Of a DNA stretch of 64,000 nucleotides, positions 597 to 60,950 are shown piece after piece. The notes beneath the pieces are model-generated. The model was given only the letters and a program-made list of their open reading frames with translations. It ran no database searches and had not been told where the DNA came from. The position numbers and the translations under genes were made by a program. Each line of letters starts with the position of its first letter. Within the stretch, counting starts at the first letter, position 1. The stretch is from Cheiracanthium punctorium (taxonomy: Eukaryota; Arthropoda; Arachnida; Araneae; Cheiracanthiidae), in contig JAWZYV010019433.1 in the NCBI GenBank assembly GCA_038373885.1, positions 62,001 through 126,000 of the forward strand, read 5' to 3'.

Positions 597-914
597 TCCA
601 GCTACACACCAATGGTGCACCGTAGCATCCCCTGACGCTCTCTGCTGGAAATCAAATGTGACCGTAGCTCCCAGACTGCTCTGGCTAGACTAACAAGTGC
701 CCACCTTAAATTGTCTTTCCTTTAAGAGCGGCAGAAAAATCCCCTCCTCCCCAATTGTAAAAAGTGCTGTGACCATCCATCTTCAATGGATCACATTCTG
801 GGTTGCATCGGACTTTCTAAAGGGGACTTAATACCCGATCCCCAAATTATTATTCATTTTTTGGCGGTCAACAACCTTCTGGAGATGATCCGACGTATGT
901 CAGATCTTTCGAGG
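597..914 (+). pseudogene. Decayed non-LTR retrotransposon ORF2 tail (RNase H C-terminal region)
   Basis: One frame (first base of codon at 600, 603 and so on) reads through a recognisable protein tail interrupted by stops at 633-635 and 723-725. It contains QTALARLTSAHLK, then a Cys/His block (NCKKCCDHPSSMDHILGC), then IGLSKGDLIPDP and IIHFLAVNNLLEMIRR. In arthropod, and especially spider, Jockey-like elements, ORF2 ends after the RNase H domain with LAR-x-x-SGHLK, a C-x2-C...HIL-x-C knuckle and a closing DFLRVNGLMDLI-type helix, and the spacing here matches. The piece is too short and broken to be active. Reverse transcriptase and endonuclease parts were not seen upstream. The GT after 914 resembles a splice donor, but I attribute that to chance. 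Confidence 0.7.
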
Positions 915-15332: not shown

Positions 15333-17305
15333 GACTAGGTTTTCTCGTGACACCTGTGCGTCTGAACATATGTATGTATGCGAAATATCGCCAAATTCGG
15401 CGCCAAAAATAAGTTTTTAAAGCTGTACTGGGATTAGCGATAGCTCTTATATTTCGCTAGAAATCACCAAATCTTAAAATTATTGAAGTATCGTATGACA
15501 CTTTCACACGAAATAAGTTTAAATGAAGTAAATCCAAAATCTGCATAATTTAATAGATGTACAAGGAAGGCGTGCGATGTCCACATCAAATACTTTTTTT
15601 TCTGTTTTTGAACGTTCATTTCAGCTTTCCTTCAAAAGTCAAATAGCTCTCCCCTGTCTACTTCTTTATGTTCTTGTTGGAGGAAGTAAAGGTTTTAATT
15701 ACTGTTTTGTGTGTTTTTAATGAGCATAAGTAGACCAACGGTCCTAATGTTCATTGAAGCCTCTTGTTGGCATCTAATTACGGCATTTGAATAAAAAACA
15801 TTGTAAGCTACAAAACACCTTAAACTGTATTCAACAAATGTCTTTTTAGTTACTGTGAACCGTTAAAGGTCAAATGTCAGTTCATCAGTACAATAGCTTA
15901 ATTTAAAATTTAAAAAATAAGCCACTCAATCCGTGTACTTTCATTTATCGAACTGCTACAGTTCATTTTGGTACAAAATATCGTATTTATAGTTAAAAAA
16001 AAAAAAATTCAACTTTCATTATGGACAATCGCAATAAAATGAAATGAACGCAAAGCGACCCCAGATAAGATAAGGCTGTTTGGAAGGCTACGGTCGCAGA
16101 AAACTTGGCAATTGCATTTTTAACGCAGATAAGCGATGCTGAAACTTATAACTCCTCACTTAGAGAACGATAAATTAACTTGACATAATAGTAACTGGTG
16201 TTCTAGCTTTCGCAGATGAATCATCAAGAAGCATGTTGAGGAGCAATAAAGAGTACGTAAGCTAATCTTATTTTATCCTAAGCAAATTGATCTTCTTTAG
16301 AGTAGTGGTAAACGATCGAAAGATAACTATTTACGTTTGAAATTTGTTTCAGTTTATAAGCAAGATGTAAATAATACACATTCCATGAGAGTTAAGTGTT
16401 ATCCTCTTTTCTTAAGCAAAATGGTTAGAACTATGGCTGCGTAAAAACTGGAGTTATTTTATTAGTTAATAAAGTACAGGTTAGGTGTACATATAAATCT
16501 AAATTTACAGTGCAACACGAACAACTTATTTTCTACAATAAAAAAGTGTTCCTCTTGGTCTTGTTTACATAAACAAAAAACATATAAAACAATAGAACTC
16601 TAAACCTAAATATTAAATGTAATAATTTTTTTAACGTATGAGACTGTTTCCTTCCATAATCTGAATTAACGTTAAACTTTTCACAACAACTACAAATAGT
16701 TATCATAATTGTGCCGTTCCTTCTTTCTTGCAAAGTTAAATTACTACTAATAATAATCTAGTGTTCGTTTTGATAAATTAATAAAGTCATTTGAAGATTA
16801 ATTAAAAATATTTGAATCTTTTAACTATTTTTCTTTGTTTCAATTGTTAACAGAAAATGTTGTTTAAGTTGTTTAACATTCAAACAATGTAGACATTCTA
16901 GTGGCTTTTTTTATGCTTAATATATTAAGATTTCTTTGGTAGAAATATATTGGTATACGTTAAGACAGTATTTGGTAAGGCAAAAGTTTAATAATAATAA
17001 GAACTACGACAATAATAATAACACAGTTCGTAGGCGATGGTGATAAAATGGTTTTAAAATGATATTTTACCGTTTTTCTTTTGTAAAACGTGTTTAATAG
17101 TAATCATTATAAAAGAGTACGATGAAATATGTTTAACACGAAAATGTTAGCATCAAAAATTGGTTAATACAAAATAACACTGATAGTATGCACTGTAGAT
17201 TGAAACACTCCCTCCACCACCCAACCCCTTAACACGATGCAAAAATAGCTTAATTGGAGAATCTTTTGCTTCTCTGCGAAATTGAAGACACGTTTAAAGA
17301 AAAAA

Positions 17306-30501: not shown

Positions 30502-30609
30502 CTCGCTGAAGGGTATTCCGGCCGAAGTCCGCCGCTCCCTGGAATTTCTGGACACTCTTTTAGATGAATTGGATGACCAGGAGGATAGAACACCAGCACC
30601 AACTTTAAG
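30502..30609 (+). CDS. Internal coding exon A of an unidentified gene with LD-like repeats
   Basis: The acceptor GACTTCTTTCAG precedes the exon and the donor AAG|GTAAGC follows. The exon is 108 bp. With one leading base and two trailing bases it reads SLKGIPAEVRRSLEFLD then TLLDELDDQEDRTPAPTL. LDTLLDEL fits the LDxLLxxL pattern of LD motifs, the short amphipathic helices in paxillin-type adaptors that bind FAT domains, parvin or GIT. That functional link is inference. Exons B (31976) and C (36580) share the phase, the SLE-x-LD core and the acidic follow-on, so the three probably arose by exon duplication and join in frame into one protein. Intron 1 (1366 bp) is loaded with foldback copies. 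The protein family is not recognised, and paxillin itself does not fit the spacing. Upstream exons were not found. Confidence 0.72.
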
Positions 30610-30785
30610 GTAAGCCAGGACTGTTGATTGAAAATATCGTTTAAATCAGAATTGTCGTGTCCGACTCTCGAGCCGCTGCTGTTGTAATATACGTATATCG
30701 CATGTAAGAGCTCACGGATTAGGAATGGATGCGAGACGAGACAGAAATTTACAACTTTTTTGCGAGACGCGACAAACATTTTTAA

Positions 30786-30962
30786 CCCTTTGAGGCGCAA
30801 CCCTTTCCCAATGCTGAAAAATGGGCAGCCGTTGCCTTCGCTCGACTTAACTACCAACAAGATGGCGAACGATCGAAACGTTCATCGGGTGCCACAGATC
30901 TAGAGACCCTTTCTTGACGACAGCTGGCTGTGCCGGCACAGCCAGCTGTCGTCAAGAAAGGA
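30786..30962 (+). mobile_element. TTAA-targeting foldback family, copy 3 (half)
   Basis: TTAA at 30782-30785 precedes CCCTTTGAGGCGCAACCC. The first arm is complete to CAGCTGGCTGTGCC, then the second arm stops after about 23 bp (GTCGTCAAGAAAGG). What follows, CATATTTTTGTCAAATG then TTTTTTTCTAGCGCCCG, matches (inverted) a block near 55366-55412, a separate dispersed repeat. The element lies in intron 1 of the exon A-C gene, 176 bp after the exon A donor. Confidence 0.8.
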
Positions 30963-31393
30963 CATATTTTTGTCAAATGTTTTTTTCTAGCGCCCGTCCT
31001 AAATGCCTAGACAACGGGCTTTATCTTCTATAGTAAAACTATTCACTGAAATTGTGCTTCAATATTTATTTTTAAATACAATGTCATTCTAAAAACAAAA
31101 CAAAACAAATCTATAAGTATATTTATACACATTTAATTATGAAAAAGATGGGGTAATGTAAAAAAAGAAACCTTTTCATGTACAAATTGTATGCAGCTTC
31201 TGAGCTTTTCCACCTCCTTCTTAACATTTAGCAAATGTATAAATTTTACTTTAACAGTTTTCGTTTAAATGTTTTCCCCCCAATTATGTATACAATTAAT
31301 TAAAATAATTTACTTAAAATTTTTATACGAATGATCAGAAATCCGATTGGTCGAAAGGTTAAATTAGTGTTTCCTCAGTTCAATCCTTATTAA

Positions 31394-31773
31394 CCCTCTA
31401 CCTCTGGGAACACCAAACTCTGACGTTTTGACGGTTGCAGTCACGAAGAATAGATTTGATTTCTATAGAAATAGTTGCGGGTGACATAGCTCCACGAGAA
31501 TCCTCTACTTTTCAGCACGTCATTTCCCGTCAAAAAATTGTCACGATTATTTTTAACAGCATTGACATCTGCTGAAAAATGGAAGAAATCGAGACCAGCT
31601 GAATAGATTGCCCAATGCTGAAAAAAGGGCAGCCGTTGCCATCGCTCGACTTAACTACCAGCAAGATGGCGGACGATCGAAACGTTCATCGCGTAGCAAG
31701 ACGGCGTGGTAAGTAGAGCGATGGCAACGGCTACCCTTTTTTCAGCATTGGGAAAGGTTTGCGCCTGAAAGGA
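31394..31773 (-). mobile_element. TTAA-targeting foldback family, copy 4
   Basis: Flanked by TTAA at 31390-31393 and 31774-31777. The orientation is opposite to copy 3: it begins with the tail end (CTCTGGGAACACCAAACTC) and closes with TTGCGCCTGAAAGG. The central arm is deleted from ATCGCG to a short GTAAGTAGAGCGATGG remnant. It lies in intron 1 of the exon A-C gene. Confidence 0.82.
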
Positions 31774-31975
31774 TTAAAGAAACACTATGATCGGCTTCAC
31801 AGCGAAAAAGTCACCGACAAGACACTTTGGGTACAAGTTATCGGAGAAGTTTGAGAACCTCTTGAATAGTCGACTAGTGCTGTTCTAAACAAGTGCGATA
31901 TTTGAATTCCAATAATAAATAGTTTTTTTTTTTGTTGTTGTTATGCTGATGATACGCAAAGCATGTTAATTACAG

Positions 31976-32095
31976 AACCATGAAAAAGGTTCCCCCTGAT
32001 GCACGGAAATCCTTAGAAATCTTAGACAGCGTTCTTGGAGAATTCGACTTAGAAGACAAAGAACTCCGTCGCTGCGAATCAGCTGATAATTTAAA
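31976..32095 (+). CDS. Internal coding exon B of the LD-like repeat gene
   Basis: The acceptor TGTTAATTACAG and donor AA|GTAAGT bound a 120-bp exon of the same phase as exon A. It reads (R)TMKKVPPDARKSLEILD then SVLGEFDLEDKELRRCESADNL. Aligned with exon A, the shared positions are V/I-P, R-(R/K)-SLE-x-LD, (V/L)L and E(F/L)D. The in-frame ATG near the exon start is internal in this reading, although a start codon in an alternative transcript cannot be excluded. The pyrimidine tract upstream is weak near the acceptor, but T-rich sequence lies 40 bp before it. The copy is unlikely to be a pseudo-exon because phase, length and motif are all kept. Confidence 0.75.
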
Positions 32096-32222
32096 GTAAG
32101 TACACTTCTGCTTTTTTTCTTTTCTACTTTTTTAGTAAGAACAATTAAGGCAGTTACAGGAGCAAAAGACTAACATATTTGGCTGTCGTTTATCATACAA
32201 AGTTATTCACAATCACTTACAG

Positions 32223-32937
32223 CAGCGGTGCGCAAACTATTTTCATCTGCGACCCCCTAATTTGCGTAACATTTTGTCGCGACCCCCTATTTTGAGTAAA
32301 ATTTTGTCGTGACCCCTGCATAGACAGTAGACATTTTGTTTAATTCAAAACGAAGTTACATTGAAATTCTTTCTGGGAGTTGCTCTTACAGGGTGTTTTT
32401 AAAAGAGTGTCGCATGACGTCATCGGTTGAAATAACGCGTTTTTAAAATAGCGCACCATACTTATAAACCACCATAAAAAATGTTATAAAAGTTGTAACA
32501 TCATTAAAATCAGTTAATGAATCAACAGATAATTTTATGAAACAATGCTTTATTTATGCATATGTATATAAATACTTTTAATGAAAAATACAAAAGTATT
32601 TTTCATTACACCATAAAAAGTCAATATGAAATATGTGCTTGCAAAGAGCTCATGATTGCTTCTATGTTCGGACCTGTATTGGAAATCGCAAGTCGTAAGT
32701 CATCCTCTGGATCCAATCGAGATCGATGTTTTGTGTTAATGGAACATAGTTTTGAAGATCACTATGCATGATCAATTTGCAGATCACTATGCATGATAAC
32801 GTGGTTCTGAAGCCCCTTCTCTTGTATTATTTGAGTTCCTTGAAATGAATAATTGTAGATTTTTCATAAATTCGAATCTCTTTGAATTTGGCGACCCCCA
32901 AAAATTTTCTCGCAACCCCCCGGTTTGCGCACCGCTG
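32223..32937. mobile_element. hAT-type nonautonomous element, 715 bp, in intron 2
   Basis: The ends CAGCGGTGCGCAAACT and GGTTTGCGCACCGCTG are inverted, with the duplication ACTTACAG at 32215-32222 and 32938-32945. Subterminal GCGACCCCC words repeat inside both ends. The 71-codon plus frame at 32556-32771 is not transposase-like. It lies 127 bp after the exon B donor. Confidence 0.93.
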
Positions 32938-32945
32938 ACTTACAG

Positions 32946-33407
32946 GATGTTAATAATTAAAATTTGCCTATTCATAGAGCTGTACAGCGAAAACTACTAG
33001 TCAGAATGCTGTCAAACTTGCAGGAAACCTTAAAAAGACCATGAGAGAGAGATTTGGGGGATTAAAAAGAAAGTTCAGAAAACTATCACCAAGTGGCAAA
33101 GTTTAATGCGAATAAAACGGACAAATAACCATTCTCAAGGGAAGAAAAAGAATGTTGAAGTTGTCAAGAAGATGCTTTATATTTCTGCGCAATATTAGAA
33201 TTTTCATATTAGCACCTATAACATTGTAAAACGTCATCTAGTGGGGACTTTTTGAACTAATTTTTTCCACCCACATTTCTCTCTCATAGTAATATTTAGG
33301 TTTCTTGCAAAGTCGGTAGCATTCTAACCAGTAGTTTTCGTCGTCCAAATTCCAAATTTCGCTTTCCAAGTCCAAATGTCAACAAGCTTGGTAATTTTTT
33401 TGGAGCA
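32946..33407. other. Intron sequence, nothing further recognised
   Basis: AT-rich sequence. A TCAGAATGCT(G) word near 33001 and its complement near 33327 (CATTCTAACCAGTAG) form a weak inverted pair around AGAGAGA-rich DNA, possibly another decayed TIR insertion. Confidence 0.3.
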
Positions 33408-34668
33408 CCTTCGATATACCCCCTACCTTGATTTTTGGCGCCAAGGCCGTTTTCGACGGCGCCAAAAAGGAAAGAGAAGTGGCCAAAAATGCCGTTTTTG
33501 ACGGCGCGAAAAATAAAAAAATGGCCGTGAAACCACTTCCGAAAGCGGAAAAACTATAAGAATTAGAAGATTTCCACAAAAAAATTTAGGGTTAAAATGT
33601 AAAAATGTCTAGAAATCTTGGCTAGTAGCAACGTTTTCAGAACCGAAAAAAACTATGAGAATTAGAAAAATTCTACAAAAAATTTAGGGTTAAGAATGTA
33701 AACAACAATAAAATCAAGAAAATTTAAGAATTCATGAACGTAGAATTCGCGTTTTCGAACAAGAAATTAGAAATAGAAAAATTGCAGAAATAATTAAGGG
33801 TTAGGAATCTAAACACGAATAAATTCAAGGAAATTTAACAATTGATGGACACAGAAATCGTGTTTTCTAGCAAGAATTTAGGGTTAAAAATTTGAAGAAA
33901 ACCTAAATTTCACAAATAATGGGATTTTTATGTGAGGGGGGGCTCTGCCCCCCTCAACCCCCCGTTTTTTTTTTTTTTTTTTACGAAAAAGGTAGTTGGG
34001 GAAACTGGAAAAATAAGAAATCGAGTAGAGCGTTTTAAGAAAAAAGCCAAAAACTGTGAAGCCATTCGCCTGTACAAATAGTGCAGTTACCACGATGTAT
34101 AACGCGAAACAATATTATACGTTAGCAAAAATATCTCGGAAAGGTTAAGCTCACACTCCGAAAGGATGTCTCCCTCAAAAAATCCAAAAACTTCTCCTGG
34201 TCCACTAACAAATAGCTCATAACAAAAATTATATTAGCTACACCTTTCTTCCCACACGTGGGATTTTTATCAGACCACTTTAACGTTAAATTTTGTTCAA
34301 AAATACCCTGCTAATTTTCAATTACATTAGCTACGGAGGTTCTTAAAAAATCATAAAATCCTAACCAAAAATATAAAAAAAGTACAGTAAAATATCAAAA
34401 GATCACAGTACCTTTGCAGAAGTGCTTTCGGTCAACTTACTACCTCTCTCTAAAAATGTGAAAAAAAAGTTCTCACAAGCTTCCACGTGCAGGAGCTATT
34501 GCATCACGGCGCTCTGTCATTGGCCGGCCGGCCTAGGTTGCCATAAATAGCCTCCCCCCATTCTTGCCAACGAAATTCGTTTGAGAAACCAGAAAATCCC
34601 TTTTATCGCCAAGCTTGGCGCAAAAAACGCAATCCTTGGCGCGAAAAAAAGGTAGGGGGTATATCGAA
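33408..34668. mobile_element. Inverted-repeat element of 1.26 kb with internal tandem units
   Basis: The left end CTTCGATATACCCCCTACC then TTGATTTTTGGCGCCAAGGC is mirrored at the right by GCCAAGCTTGGCGCAAAAAA ... GGTAGGGGGTATATCGAAG. Inside, ~33540-33900 holds three diverged ~115-125-bp tandem units, each with GAATTAGAA-x-ATT and ATTTAGGGTTAA(G)AATGTAAA. A G7/C6 hairpin (GGGGCTCTGCCCCC) and a T run lie near 33936-33982. No coding sequence was recognised; the superfamily is not determined. Confidence 0.6.
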
Positions 34669-34787
34669 GCTAAGCCATTTTGGAGAGAAGCGGGAAATTT
34701 GACGACAAAATTAATTAATATTGGGAAAAAAACAATTTTTATGTTACATTCTGTTAATGTATTTTCTTTGGTGCATGGAGTTTTTAA

Positions 34788-35294
34788 CCCTCTCGTCACC
34801 GAATTATGAAAAAACAGAGAAAAAAAAACTGTCTAGCATTTAATGCATCTGAAATACTATTAGAAATCATGCAAAAATATTTTTTTCTAATTTCGATTAA
34901 TATTAGATTTTTCTAATATTAATTTCTGCATTTTCGAAGCATTTTGTTATGCTAAAATTAATTTAAAAGGATGCACATATTAGGTAAAGGTTGGGGAATA
35001 AGAAAAAAACTGTACTTACCTTAAAAAGAAAAACAAAACGGTAAAAAGCAGCGTAAATATTTTCTTAATTTTCCTCCTGAAACAATGAAGCGAAAACTGA
35101 AAAAATGATCTAAATTGACTAGTACTGCAATCTAGGCACGATTTATGCATCTAGTTAAGAGCATCATATACTTTCTACATGAATTAATGATATTGATATC
35201 ACTGAAAGAAAAAAATACTAAATTTAATTGTTTTCTCTCTAAATATTGGTATTTGAAGTAGGAGCCTCATATGAGGTTCAGGGTGACGAGAGGG
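34788..35294. mobile_element. piggyBac-like MITE, 507 bp
   Basis: TTAA at 34784-34787 and 35295-35298 flanks the inverted ends CCCTCTCGTCACCGAA and TTCAGGGTGACGAGAGGG. TTAA targeting with CCCT...AGGG ends is diagnostic of piggyBac-type elements. The interior is AT-rich and noncoding. Its ends differ from the eight-copy foldback family. Confidence 0.85.
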
Positions 35295-35766
35295 TTAATT
35301 CTTATTTAAGTGTGTTTGGAAAATATGGCTTACGTTTTTAGTAATAAAAACCTAACTAGAGATTGAATTACCCTGAAAACTTCGTTGGAATGATGATCCT
35401 TAAACAATTTAATGTAAAAATCTCTTTAAAATTAGCTTTAAATCGCTTTAAGAAAACGAAAACGGAATTCTGATTTTTTGAAATTTGTTCACCCGAAATT
35501 TCATATAAGAATTAGGTTGTGGCTATGTAAATGCAATATAACGCAATCTACGCAAAACTACAACTTCAAGATAATGTATATACTAATAGAAGTACTGTAG
35601 ATAATAGAAGATACTGTAGAATAACTGTAAGATCTGTAATTAGTACCTTCTGATCGAAACGCAAAAGTCATATCCGCATATCTCGTTATTTAACTGTATG
35701 GCATATCAGCAGTTTTAACCGGCAAAAAAATTTTAGCGGTCAGTTTCCCATATCGTGGAGTATATA

Positions 35767-36431
35767 TAGTGAAACTTCGATTTAACATTACCCGTATTCA
35801 ACATTTTCCACCTATAACGTCATTTTCTAAAAAATCCCGTTAATAAAGTTACATTTCCGGTATTTATTTTTTTTCCGAAATCGGATAGCTCGTATGAGGC
35901 TCGAAATGCCAATAAGAAAACACAAATAATTTCCTCAGCGATTGAAGCTATCCAAGATTCCCCCCCCCCCAAGAATTGAAGATCAAGATAGTGGCAAGGA
36001 AAAGGAAAGGGGGGGGCTGAGGGGGCTTGAGCCCTCCCCATACCCTTGGAAGAAGGAAGAAATTAACCACAGATCATTTTTAGATTCCAGCATTGATAGC
36101 AACATACTGAGCCCCTCCCAAACTTATTGAATTGATACGCTACTGGGTCAAGAGACAAATTTACAAAAACTCATATGTATTGAAAATAAAATTTGTGACG
36201 CAATAGTAAAAGCAGAACAGAAAGGAGGAAAAAAAACTATTTCTTTAAAAAACAATTTTGAAAACCAGCGTTTAAATTATTTTATGGGAATACATAAAAG
36301 TTGTATAGCATAAATTGCAGTTTAATTTATTGTCAGCACTCTGTTTTTGTCTAACCCCGATTAAGATTTTTCCCGCTTATAAAATTATTCCTTTTCGGTC
36401 CCTTGAATGCCGTTAAATCGGGTTTTTACTG
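35767..36431. mobile_element. pogo-like nonautonomous element, 0.66 kb
   Basis: The left end TAGTGAAACTTCGATTTAAC and right end CGTTAAATCGGGTTTTTACTG are inverted relatives, with TA on both sides (35765-35766 and 36432-36433). CGATTTAAC-type ends are common on TA-targeting pogo/Tigger MITEs. A nested C-run/G-run block at ~35960-36045 resembles another G-tract insertion. It ends about 150 bp before exon C. Confidence 0.6.
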
Positions 36432-36579
36432 TATCCGGATCGCAGACAGTGAGAGTTGGAGGTTAATTCAACCAAATAATCTTGGCTTTTAGTCAAATAC
36501 TTTTATGATCCTGCATAAAACATTAGCCTCCCCCCCCCACTTCTGCTAAATACTTATTGTTCTTTCCGCGTAATTTCAG

Positions 36580-36723
36580 AGTACCATCCGACGTAAACGA
36601 AGAAGTAAATAGGTCCTTAGAAGTTCTCGACAGAGTGCTGGACGAATTCCAACATGAAGGTGGCAGGCCGACCGTGGAAAAGCGACCAAAAGTCGTCAGG
36701 GACGAGTCATTGCAAAAGCCAAG
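36580..36723 (+). CDS. Internal coding exon C of the LD-like repeat gene
   Basis: The acceptor TTTCCGCGTAATTTCAG and donor AG|GTAAGA enclose 144 bp, again one leading base and two trailing bases. It reads (K)VPSDVNEEVNRSLEVLD then RVLDEFQHEGGRPTVEK and RPKVVRDESLQKP. The motif VP-x-D...RSLEVLDRVLDEF aligns with exons A and B after a four-residue insertion (NEEV). The tail is longer and basic (EKRPKVVRD). Splicing A-B-C keeps the frame, and each exon could be skipped without a frameshift. Intron 2 is 4484 bp and full of MITEs. Downstream exons were not recognised in the remaining 27 kb. Confidence 0.75.
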
Positions 36724-57079: not shown

Positions 57080-57420
57080 TTGGGCAAAAATTAACTTTCA
57101 ACTAACAACTAAAACTAATTTAGTTAGTTGACAGGTAAATGACAACTAAACTAATAGTTACTTAGTTGTAAGGTTCAACTAATGCTCAACTAAATTAGTT
57201 TAGTTGAACAGAAAACTAAAACTAATTTAGTTGGCCAACTAGTTGAACCTTCAACTAACAACTATTAGTTTTAGTTGTAAAGTCAACTAACTCGGCTCAA
57301 CTAAATTAGTTTTAGTTGAACAGAAAACTAAAACTGATTTAGTTGAGCCGAGTTAGTTGGACCTTCAACTAAAACTATTAGTTTTAGTTGTAGTTTTCGA
57401 ATAACAACTAACTGTAATCT
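57080..57420. repeat. Left subterminal array of short inverted words
   Basis: Many head-to-head copies of (A)ACTAAAACTAA/TTAGTTTTAGTT and TTCAACTAA/TTAGTTGAA give multiple possible stems. The mirror-image array is at 60610-60950. Confidence 0.85.
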
Positions 57421-60609: not shown

Positions 60610-60950
60610 TATTCGACAATTACAACTAAAACTATTAGTTGTAGTTGTGAGGTTCAACTAACTCTGCTCAACTAAATTAGTTTTAGTTGAACCTTCAACT
60701 AAAATTAATTTAGTTGGGACGAGTTAGTTGAACCTTCAACTAAAACTACTAGTTGTAGTTGTAAGGTCCAACTAACTCGGCTCAACTAAATTAGTTTTAG
60801 TTGAGCACTAAACTAGAACTAATTTAGTTGAGCCGATTTAGTTGAACCTTCAACTAACAACTATTTTAGTTGAAAATTTAGTTGTGTTCAATTAAAACTT
60901 TCCTAGTTTTTAGTTGAATGTTTAGTTCAATTAAAATTTTAGTTACTCAT
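60610..60950. repeat. Right subterminal array of the 3.9-kb hAT
   Basis: Alternating TTAGTTTTAGTTGAACCTTC and AACTAAAACTAATTTAGTTG words, the mirror image of 57080-57420. Confidence 0.85.

Follow-up and report, generated by a model that had tools for sequence, protein, structure and literature searches.

Phase-symmetric duplicated exons encode tandem LD-containing repeats, predicted to be helical, in a gene of the spider Cheiracanthium punctorium

Introduction

Short LD-containing helices within disordered regions are known from paxillin, leupaxin, and Hic-5, and also from DLC1 and EPB41L5; paxillin carries several of them per protein. A helix with the core LDxVLDEF is found in SARA/endofin (5MJY). 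In SARA, this is a single helix at the extreme N terminus, combined with an MxxYF element, in a protein that also has a FYVE domain. Here, we analyze a 64,000-nucleotide stretch of the genome of the spider Cheiracanthium punctorium (referred to as the window), which comprises bases 62001–126000 of a 793-kb contig, C14294, in a 2.53-Gb assembly. Three exons in the window each encode one copy of a repeat with the motif SLExLD and are part of a gene for an uncharacterized protein that has a fourth copy downstream.

Like the paxillin family, this gene encodes several short LD-type helices (here predicted) in a region predicted to be disordered. It differs from that family in the residues at positions +3 and +7 (counted from the leucine of LD as position 0), in lacking a match to LIM domains, and in that the conserved start of the helix, P-x-[ED]-V-R-x-S-L-E, is longer. 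The SARA/endofin helix resembles the repeats in its LDxVLDEF core and in the spacing of its hydrophobic contacts, whereas the MxxYF element is missing from the repeats and no counterpart of the FYVE domain was found in the repeat protein. The spider proteins LOC118188521 isoform X3 (Stegodyphus dumicola), HNY73_023075 (Argiope bruennichi), and LOC129235177 isoform X2 (Uloborus diversus) belong to the same family as the gene described here. Their repeats, the SPPP[IV]PKR block (the first block in Uloborus being SAPPIPKR), the TIED[LI]..L.PTDALxRP block, and a C-terminal basic stretch all align with it, whereas identity is only about 40% and repeat number and linker lengths differ.

Three exons of one phase in the window

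The original prediction, made from the window's letters alone, placed three exons of 108, 120, and 144 bp at the positions given in Table 1 and assigned them one common phase. AG acceptors and GTAAG donors are present at these positions, and each exon opens with one codon-completing base and closes with two, which makes the exons symmetric. In a blind exon scan that combined splice scores with a codon score on both strands, exons 3, 1, and 2 took ranks 1, 2, and 7 among the candidates listed for the window. When the scan was extended to 256 kb, repeat 4 came 4th and exons 3, 1, and 2 came 6th, 10th, and 46th of 60. The pattern LD.[LIVM][LIVM].[DE][LFIM] occurs three times in the six frames of the window, in all cases inside exons 1–3, and four times in the six frames of the 256 kb, the fourth occurrence being the new copy; a looser LD-like pattern over the same 256 kb also matched three unrelated places.

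The likeness among the four encoded repeats exceeds that of shuffled peptides, the observed score being reached by 0 of 5000 shuffles for five of the six pairs and by 1 of 5000 for the sixth. At the DNA level, four of the six exon pairs score above shuffles (a score attained by 0, 0, 0, and 2 of 500 shuffles), and the other two are no better than shuffles (105 and 57 of 500). The one-to-one correspondence with the repeats of other spiders, rather than the DNA-level comparison, is what suggests an old age of the copies.

The gene beyond the window

Examination of the flanks for further copies, which the original prediction had proposed, yielded repeat 4, located 117 kb downstream. Together with a bridging exon, an exon of 434 codons, and two further exons, the repeat exons make up a set of eight, all AG/GT-ended, that join into a stop-free frame of 740 codons with a coding span of at least 162 kb (Table 1). 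The bridging exon was picked for its phase first and was borne out afterwards by the alignment with homologs. In searches of the spider's own genome, the 434-codon exon, repeat 3, and repeat 4 each matched one place; these searches missed the sister repeats, which means that distant copies elsewhere could escape them. The gene is predicted to encode a mostly disordered product of about 750 to 800 residues.

In the 44.5 kb upstream, two short ML[RK].. starts have a donor score above 0; one of them is the candidate first coding exon of the long form, MLRSNK, whose length fits the MLRRQNRT and MLRNNNRK starts of homologs. An alternative first exon, combined with repeat 4 and the later exons, gives a stop-free frame of 637 codons. 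A search between exons 2 and 3 with a narrow pattern revealed no counterpart to the first exon of homolog P0009. A transposase-like open frame resembling those of Tc1/mariner elements lies on the minus strand within an intron of the gene (C14294:248733-249389).

Table 1. Positions of exons, introns, and candidate first exons of the repeat gene (plain ranges count from the start of the window; ranges preceded by C14294 are contig positions)
Feature	Position	Strand	Remarks
Candidate first coding exon, long form (MLRSNK + 2 bases)	16233..16252	+	uncertain; weak donor
Exon, repeat 1 (SLKGIPAEVRRSLEFLDTLLDELDDQEDRTPAPTL)	30502..30609	+	108 bp; enters with one base, leaves with two; aligns with repeat 1 of P0006–P0008
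Intron, repeats 1/2	30610..31975	+	GTAAG...ACAG; repeats joined in homologs P0006–P0008
Exon, repeat 2 (TMKKVPPDARKSLEILDSVLGEFDLEDKELRRCESADNL)	31976..32095	+	120 bp; phase as exon 1; weak acceptor (score -1.4)
Intron, repeats 2/3	32096..36579	+	GTAAG...TCAG; repeats joined in homologs P0006–P0008
Exon, repeat 3 (VPSDVNEEVNRSLEVLDRVLDEFQHEGG...)	36580..36723	+	144 bp; phase as exons 1 and 2
Alternative first exon (MTNGIMMKWRVRREGRCNSV + GA/GTGAGT)	C14294:134116-134177		resembles first exon of P0001
Exon, repeat 4	C14294:215878-216000 (153878-154000 from window start)	same as exons 1–3	123 bp; same phase
Bridging exon	C14294:221365-221473	same as exons 1–3	turns phase as required; TDGSTSHDSGLSLQEQ supported by homologs
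434-codon exon	C14294:228705-230007	same as exons 1–3	continues frame
Further exon	C14294:234460-234690	same as exons 1–3	continues frame
Further exon	C14294:255000-255083	same as exons 1–3	continues frame

Homologs and repeat number

A 713-residue join of the exons matched 12 uncharacterized proteins with E values from 4e-256 to 5e-100, at 40 to 70% identity and covering 57 to 99% of the query. Six of these are named: Stegodyphus dumicola, Argiope bruennichi, Uloborus diversus, Larinioides sclopetarius, Nephila pilipes, and Trichonephila inaurata. A profile search returned 13 proteins, five of them new, of which three are named (Caerostris extrusa, Trichonephila clavipes, and Oedothorax gibbosus). 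All these species are spiders. Among the named matches found here, the family thus appears confined to spiders; the protein searches scored approximately 8,000 candidates sharing most words with the query, and absence outside spiders lies beyond that reach. Similarity to the family of LOC118188521 and its relatives extends over the whole length, which places the gene within it. The 740-codon join and these homologs bear out the view that the exons belong to one modular gene for an uncharacterized protein.

Four tandem N-terminal SLExLD repeats are present in this gene and in three of the 17 homologs (P0006–P0008), and the other 14 hold fewer or start later. Three copies are found in two homologs (P0010 and P0015, the latter with one degenerate copy), two in one (P0009), one in four (P0001 and P0011–P0013), and none in seven, which start downstream of the repeat region. 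The original prediction had named homologs with the segments unjoined or not conserved as grounds for rejecting it; P0006–P0008 carry the repeats joined. All four repeats of P0007 lie within 783 residues on a contig of 2,442 bases, and the contigs that encode the 662 residues of the one-repeat form P0001 do not exceed 2,206 bases; these short contigs leave no space for introns, and the four copies of P0007 are therefore joined. The acceptor of the 434-codon exon is supported by P0002 and P0003 (contigs of 2,422 and 2,700 bases), whose sequences pass from intron into the region of homology at this point.

P0001 opens with MTNGRMMKWRVRKENRYNAVE, followed directly by repeat 4. Given this start and the matching start in the genome studied here, a one-repeat form made from a second first exon likely exists in two species. 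The records of P0006 and P0009 carry the isoform names X3 and X2. As to the further proposal that the motif number varies, relatives with one to four copies agree with it; the support for isoforms that differ in valency thus comes from comparison across relatives. The models of P0012, P0014, and P0015 extend into a stretch rich in hydrophobic segments, probably a fused neighboring gene.

Conservation and predicted structure of the repeats

Seventeen of the 28 repeat copies counted in this gene and its homologs were aligned (A4). Seven near-identical copies of repeat 4, the three copies of P0010, and the degenerate first copy of P0015 were left out, and dropping the latter raises the apparent conservation. 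S and D+1 do not vary among the 17 selected copies, and L-3, L0, and E+6 hardly vary, within a predicted helix of approximately 20 residues that reads roughly P-x-[ED]-V-R-x-S-L-E-x-L-D-x-[IV]-L-x-E-[FY]. The P-x-[ED] registers originally assigned hold for exons 1 and 2, whereas the "VP-x-D" named for exon 3 lies four residues off register; the register position of the proline is N in exon 3 and P in repeat 3 of P0006, P0007, P0008, and P0009. Averaged over columns, the share of the majority residue is 0.72, 0.73, 0.68, and 0.90 in repeats 1–4, the values for repeats 1–3 coming from few sequences, and 0.55, 0.45, and 0.42 in the linkers that separate the repeats. The repeats are one among several conserved islands of the protein.

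An AlphaFold model of P0006, calculated with 17 sequences, places helices at residues 14–33, 47–72, 90–115, and 133–159, at the four repeats, and gives a predicted local distance difference test score (pLDDT) below 50 for 569 of the 819 residues. The model thus agrees with the "docking helices" of the original prediction in so far as helices are predicted in a mostly disordered chain, whereas their identity as paxillin-type LD motifs is only partly supported. The combination looked for in LD motifs, an amphipathic helix in a disordered setting, is given by prediction for this one homolog. Compared with 2000 shuffles, the helical moment was reached by 27 for repeat 1 and by 2 for repeat 3, and repeat 4 is weakly better than shuffles (63).

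Two conserved stretches of P0006 are SPPP[IV]PKR (226–233), which is SH3-ligand-like, and KPPSFVPP (466–477). P0006 also has cysteine pairs, CxxC, CxC, and CxxC (309–312, 435–437, and 572–575), that are kept in most homologs and in the 434-codon exon and that sit in a chain otherwise mostly predicted to be disordered; they may form a metal site.

Discussion

On balance, we consider it probable that the repeats are docking helices arranged in tandem in a disordered scaffold protein of spiders, encoded by phase-symmetric duplicated exons, with a valency set by first exons and exon inclusion. Here we infer the docking, the control of valency, and a partner, in the following manner. Exons 1–3 would be repeats 1–3 of four duplicated phase-symmetric exons near the gene start, each exon giving one helix of about 20 residues whose hydrophobic side would be laid into a groove on a partner, as LD motifs or the SARA helix do. 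Alternative first exons and exon inclusion would then give products with one to four helices, and the number of helices would set the valency of the scaffold, hence how many partners bind. Docking motifs mostly arise singly and are hard to trace, and here one motif was copied as whole symmetric exons and retained, in varying numbers, among spider proteins with a likeness of no more than about 40%. The gene could thus offer a natural system for asking how motif valency alters the function of a scaffold, in a protein without an assigned role.

Several observations weigh against this interpretation. An intron-free homolog could also be a retrocopy, and the repeat number comes partly from annotated gene models (P0006, P0008–P0013, and P0015), in which a difference in number may stem from exons that were missed or lost rather than from splicing. 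The first exon is uncertain, the donor of the bridging exon is weak (gttggt), and the last coding exon was not found with a short pattern up to base 306000. The SPPPIPKR, PPSFVPP, TIEDLP, and SLSTF blocks, at 0.82, 0.90, 0.87, and 0.91, match or exceed the repeats in conservation. The model of P0006 is of low confidence overall (predicted template modeling score 0.27), and the helical moment of repeat 2 is no better than that of shuffles (315 of 2000 reach it), a test also failed by the known paxillin LD2 (777 of 2000).

It is possible, if unlikely, that the repeats, like the N-terminal helix of SARA/endofin, bind a Bro1 domain (HD-PTP/PTPN23 or ALIX) and thereby link the scaffold to endosomal sorting. 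In PDB, the repeat profile matches nothing at E up to 10 apart from the SARA peptide LDKVLDEFEQ (5mjy), and SARA scores 21.8, inside the range of the repeats themselves; as the best of 177,635 sequences this score is a selected one, and the profile match to SARA/ZFYVE9 is not significant (E 0.27). The SARA contacts L12, D13, V15, L16, D17, F19, and E20, as presented in Table 2 of PMC5501724, correspond to L0, D+1, +3, L+4, +5, +7, and +8 of the repeats, and SARA A9 and F5 align with the conserved L-3 and the V/I/A at -7. Yet each repeat misses one residue of this common site, namely F+7 (repeat 1), D+5 (repeats 2 and 4), or the acidic residue at +8 (repeat 3), and all four have E or D instead of Y at -8, so that the MxxYF part, which PMC5501724 describes as needed for tight binding, is absent. 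A more far-reaching proposal, which we regard as a long shot, is that of a spider-lineage scaffold whose helices, one to four in number as set by promoter choice and symmetric-exon inclusion, form a new multi-copy class of Bro1 (HD-PTP/ALIX) ligands; if true, Bro1-ligand helices would tie the scaffold to ESCRT sorting.

Comparable doubt attaches to the idea that the repeats are genuine LD motifs with FAK FAT, parvin, talin, vinculin, or GIT as docking partners, which would make the protein a spider focal-adhesion scaffold. The SPPP[IV]PKR block resembles an SH3 ligand and would fit such a protein, whereas LIM is not among the Pfam matches at E up to 0.1 in the 17 homologs. LDTLLDEL in exon 1 fits exactly the LDxLLxxL signature that the original prediction had invoked, a consensus also given in PMC7703752, whereas the other 16 of the 17 aligned copies deviate from it. 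L-3, the acidic +1, and the spacing are as in paxillin LD2 (NLSELDRLLLELNAVQ) as shown in PMC7703752, and the predicted disordered context is what that source requires. However, V or I stands at +3 in 16 of the 17 copies and F or Y at +7 in 12 of 17, compared with F or Y at +7 in none of the 19 LD-type peptides presented in PMC7703752 (register set in this analysis). On the repeat profile, the paxillin LD2 core scores 9.0, which 29 of 200,000 random 9-mers reach, and LD4 scores 2.7, compared with 17.6 to 26.3 for the repeats themselves, from which the profile was made. The best of the 19 peptides is CH037 at 16.9 (C8orf37, rated least likely in PMC7703752), followed by 10.7.

A function of the repeats as CRM1 nuclear export signals seems still less plausible. 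All four repeats of this gene show the spacing L-x2-L-x3-L-x2-F/L, which agrees with the class 3 pattern of PMC4596688, tested as Phi1-x(2,3)-Phi2-x(2,3)-Phi3-x2-Phi4; two class 3 signals presented in the same source bind differently from the pattern, which makes it a weak guide. Export-signal and LD sequences may overlap, according to PMC7703752, but as many as four copies, with S, D+1, and E+6 almost strictly kept, would be more than export requires. That the repeats pair mutually as short coiled coils or a four-helix bundle, with no outside partner, would suit their heptad-like 4-3-4-3 hydrophobic spacing from -7 to +7 but is improbable, given that single-repeat proteins exist (P0001 and P0011–P0013) and that their repeat is the best conserved one.

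Other searches and observations

The original prediction had proposed profile searches with the joined peptide of the three exons (124 residues), and these brought no significant match in any database tried: the best E value in PDB was 0.2 (coil-like), Pfam gave no match, none of 26 candidates matched in the protein database, and phage records gave none. Bases 1–60002 of the window, searched in three forward frames with stops as X, gave three sub-threshold Pfam matches alone. For the 434-codon exon, the best Pfam E value was 0.16 and PDB gave no match, and the 17 homologs gave two Pfam matches at E up to 0.1, in one member each (best E 0.011 and 0.049). No match was obtained in a PDB search with one frame of 30–45 kb, or in searches for Rfam families and tRNAs. 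A text search of the literature gave no match to the peptide strings or to the accession-like names of six homologs, and "LD motif" was absent among the matches listed for LD motif combined with spider terms.

Peptides resembling a zinc knuckle and RNase H are encoded at 735-914 (+) of the window and at C14294:61370-61588, just upstream of it, and probably derive from a remnant of a non-LTR retrotransposon. Two arrays, at 57143-57392 and 60623-60863 of the window, consist of related repeat units of 112 to 114 bp, each with many motifs that resemble TAGTTTTAGTTG and occur in both orientations.

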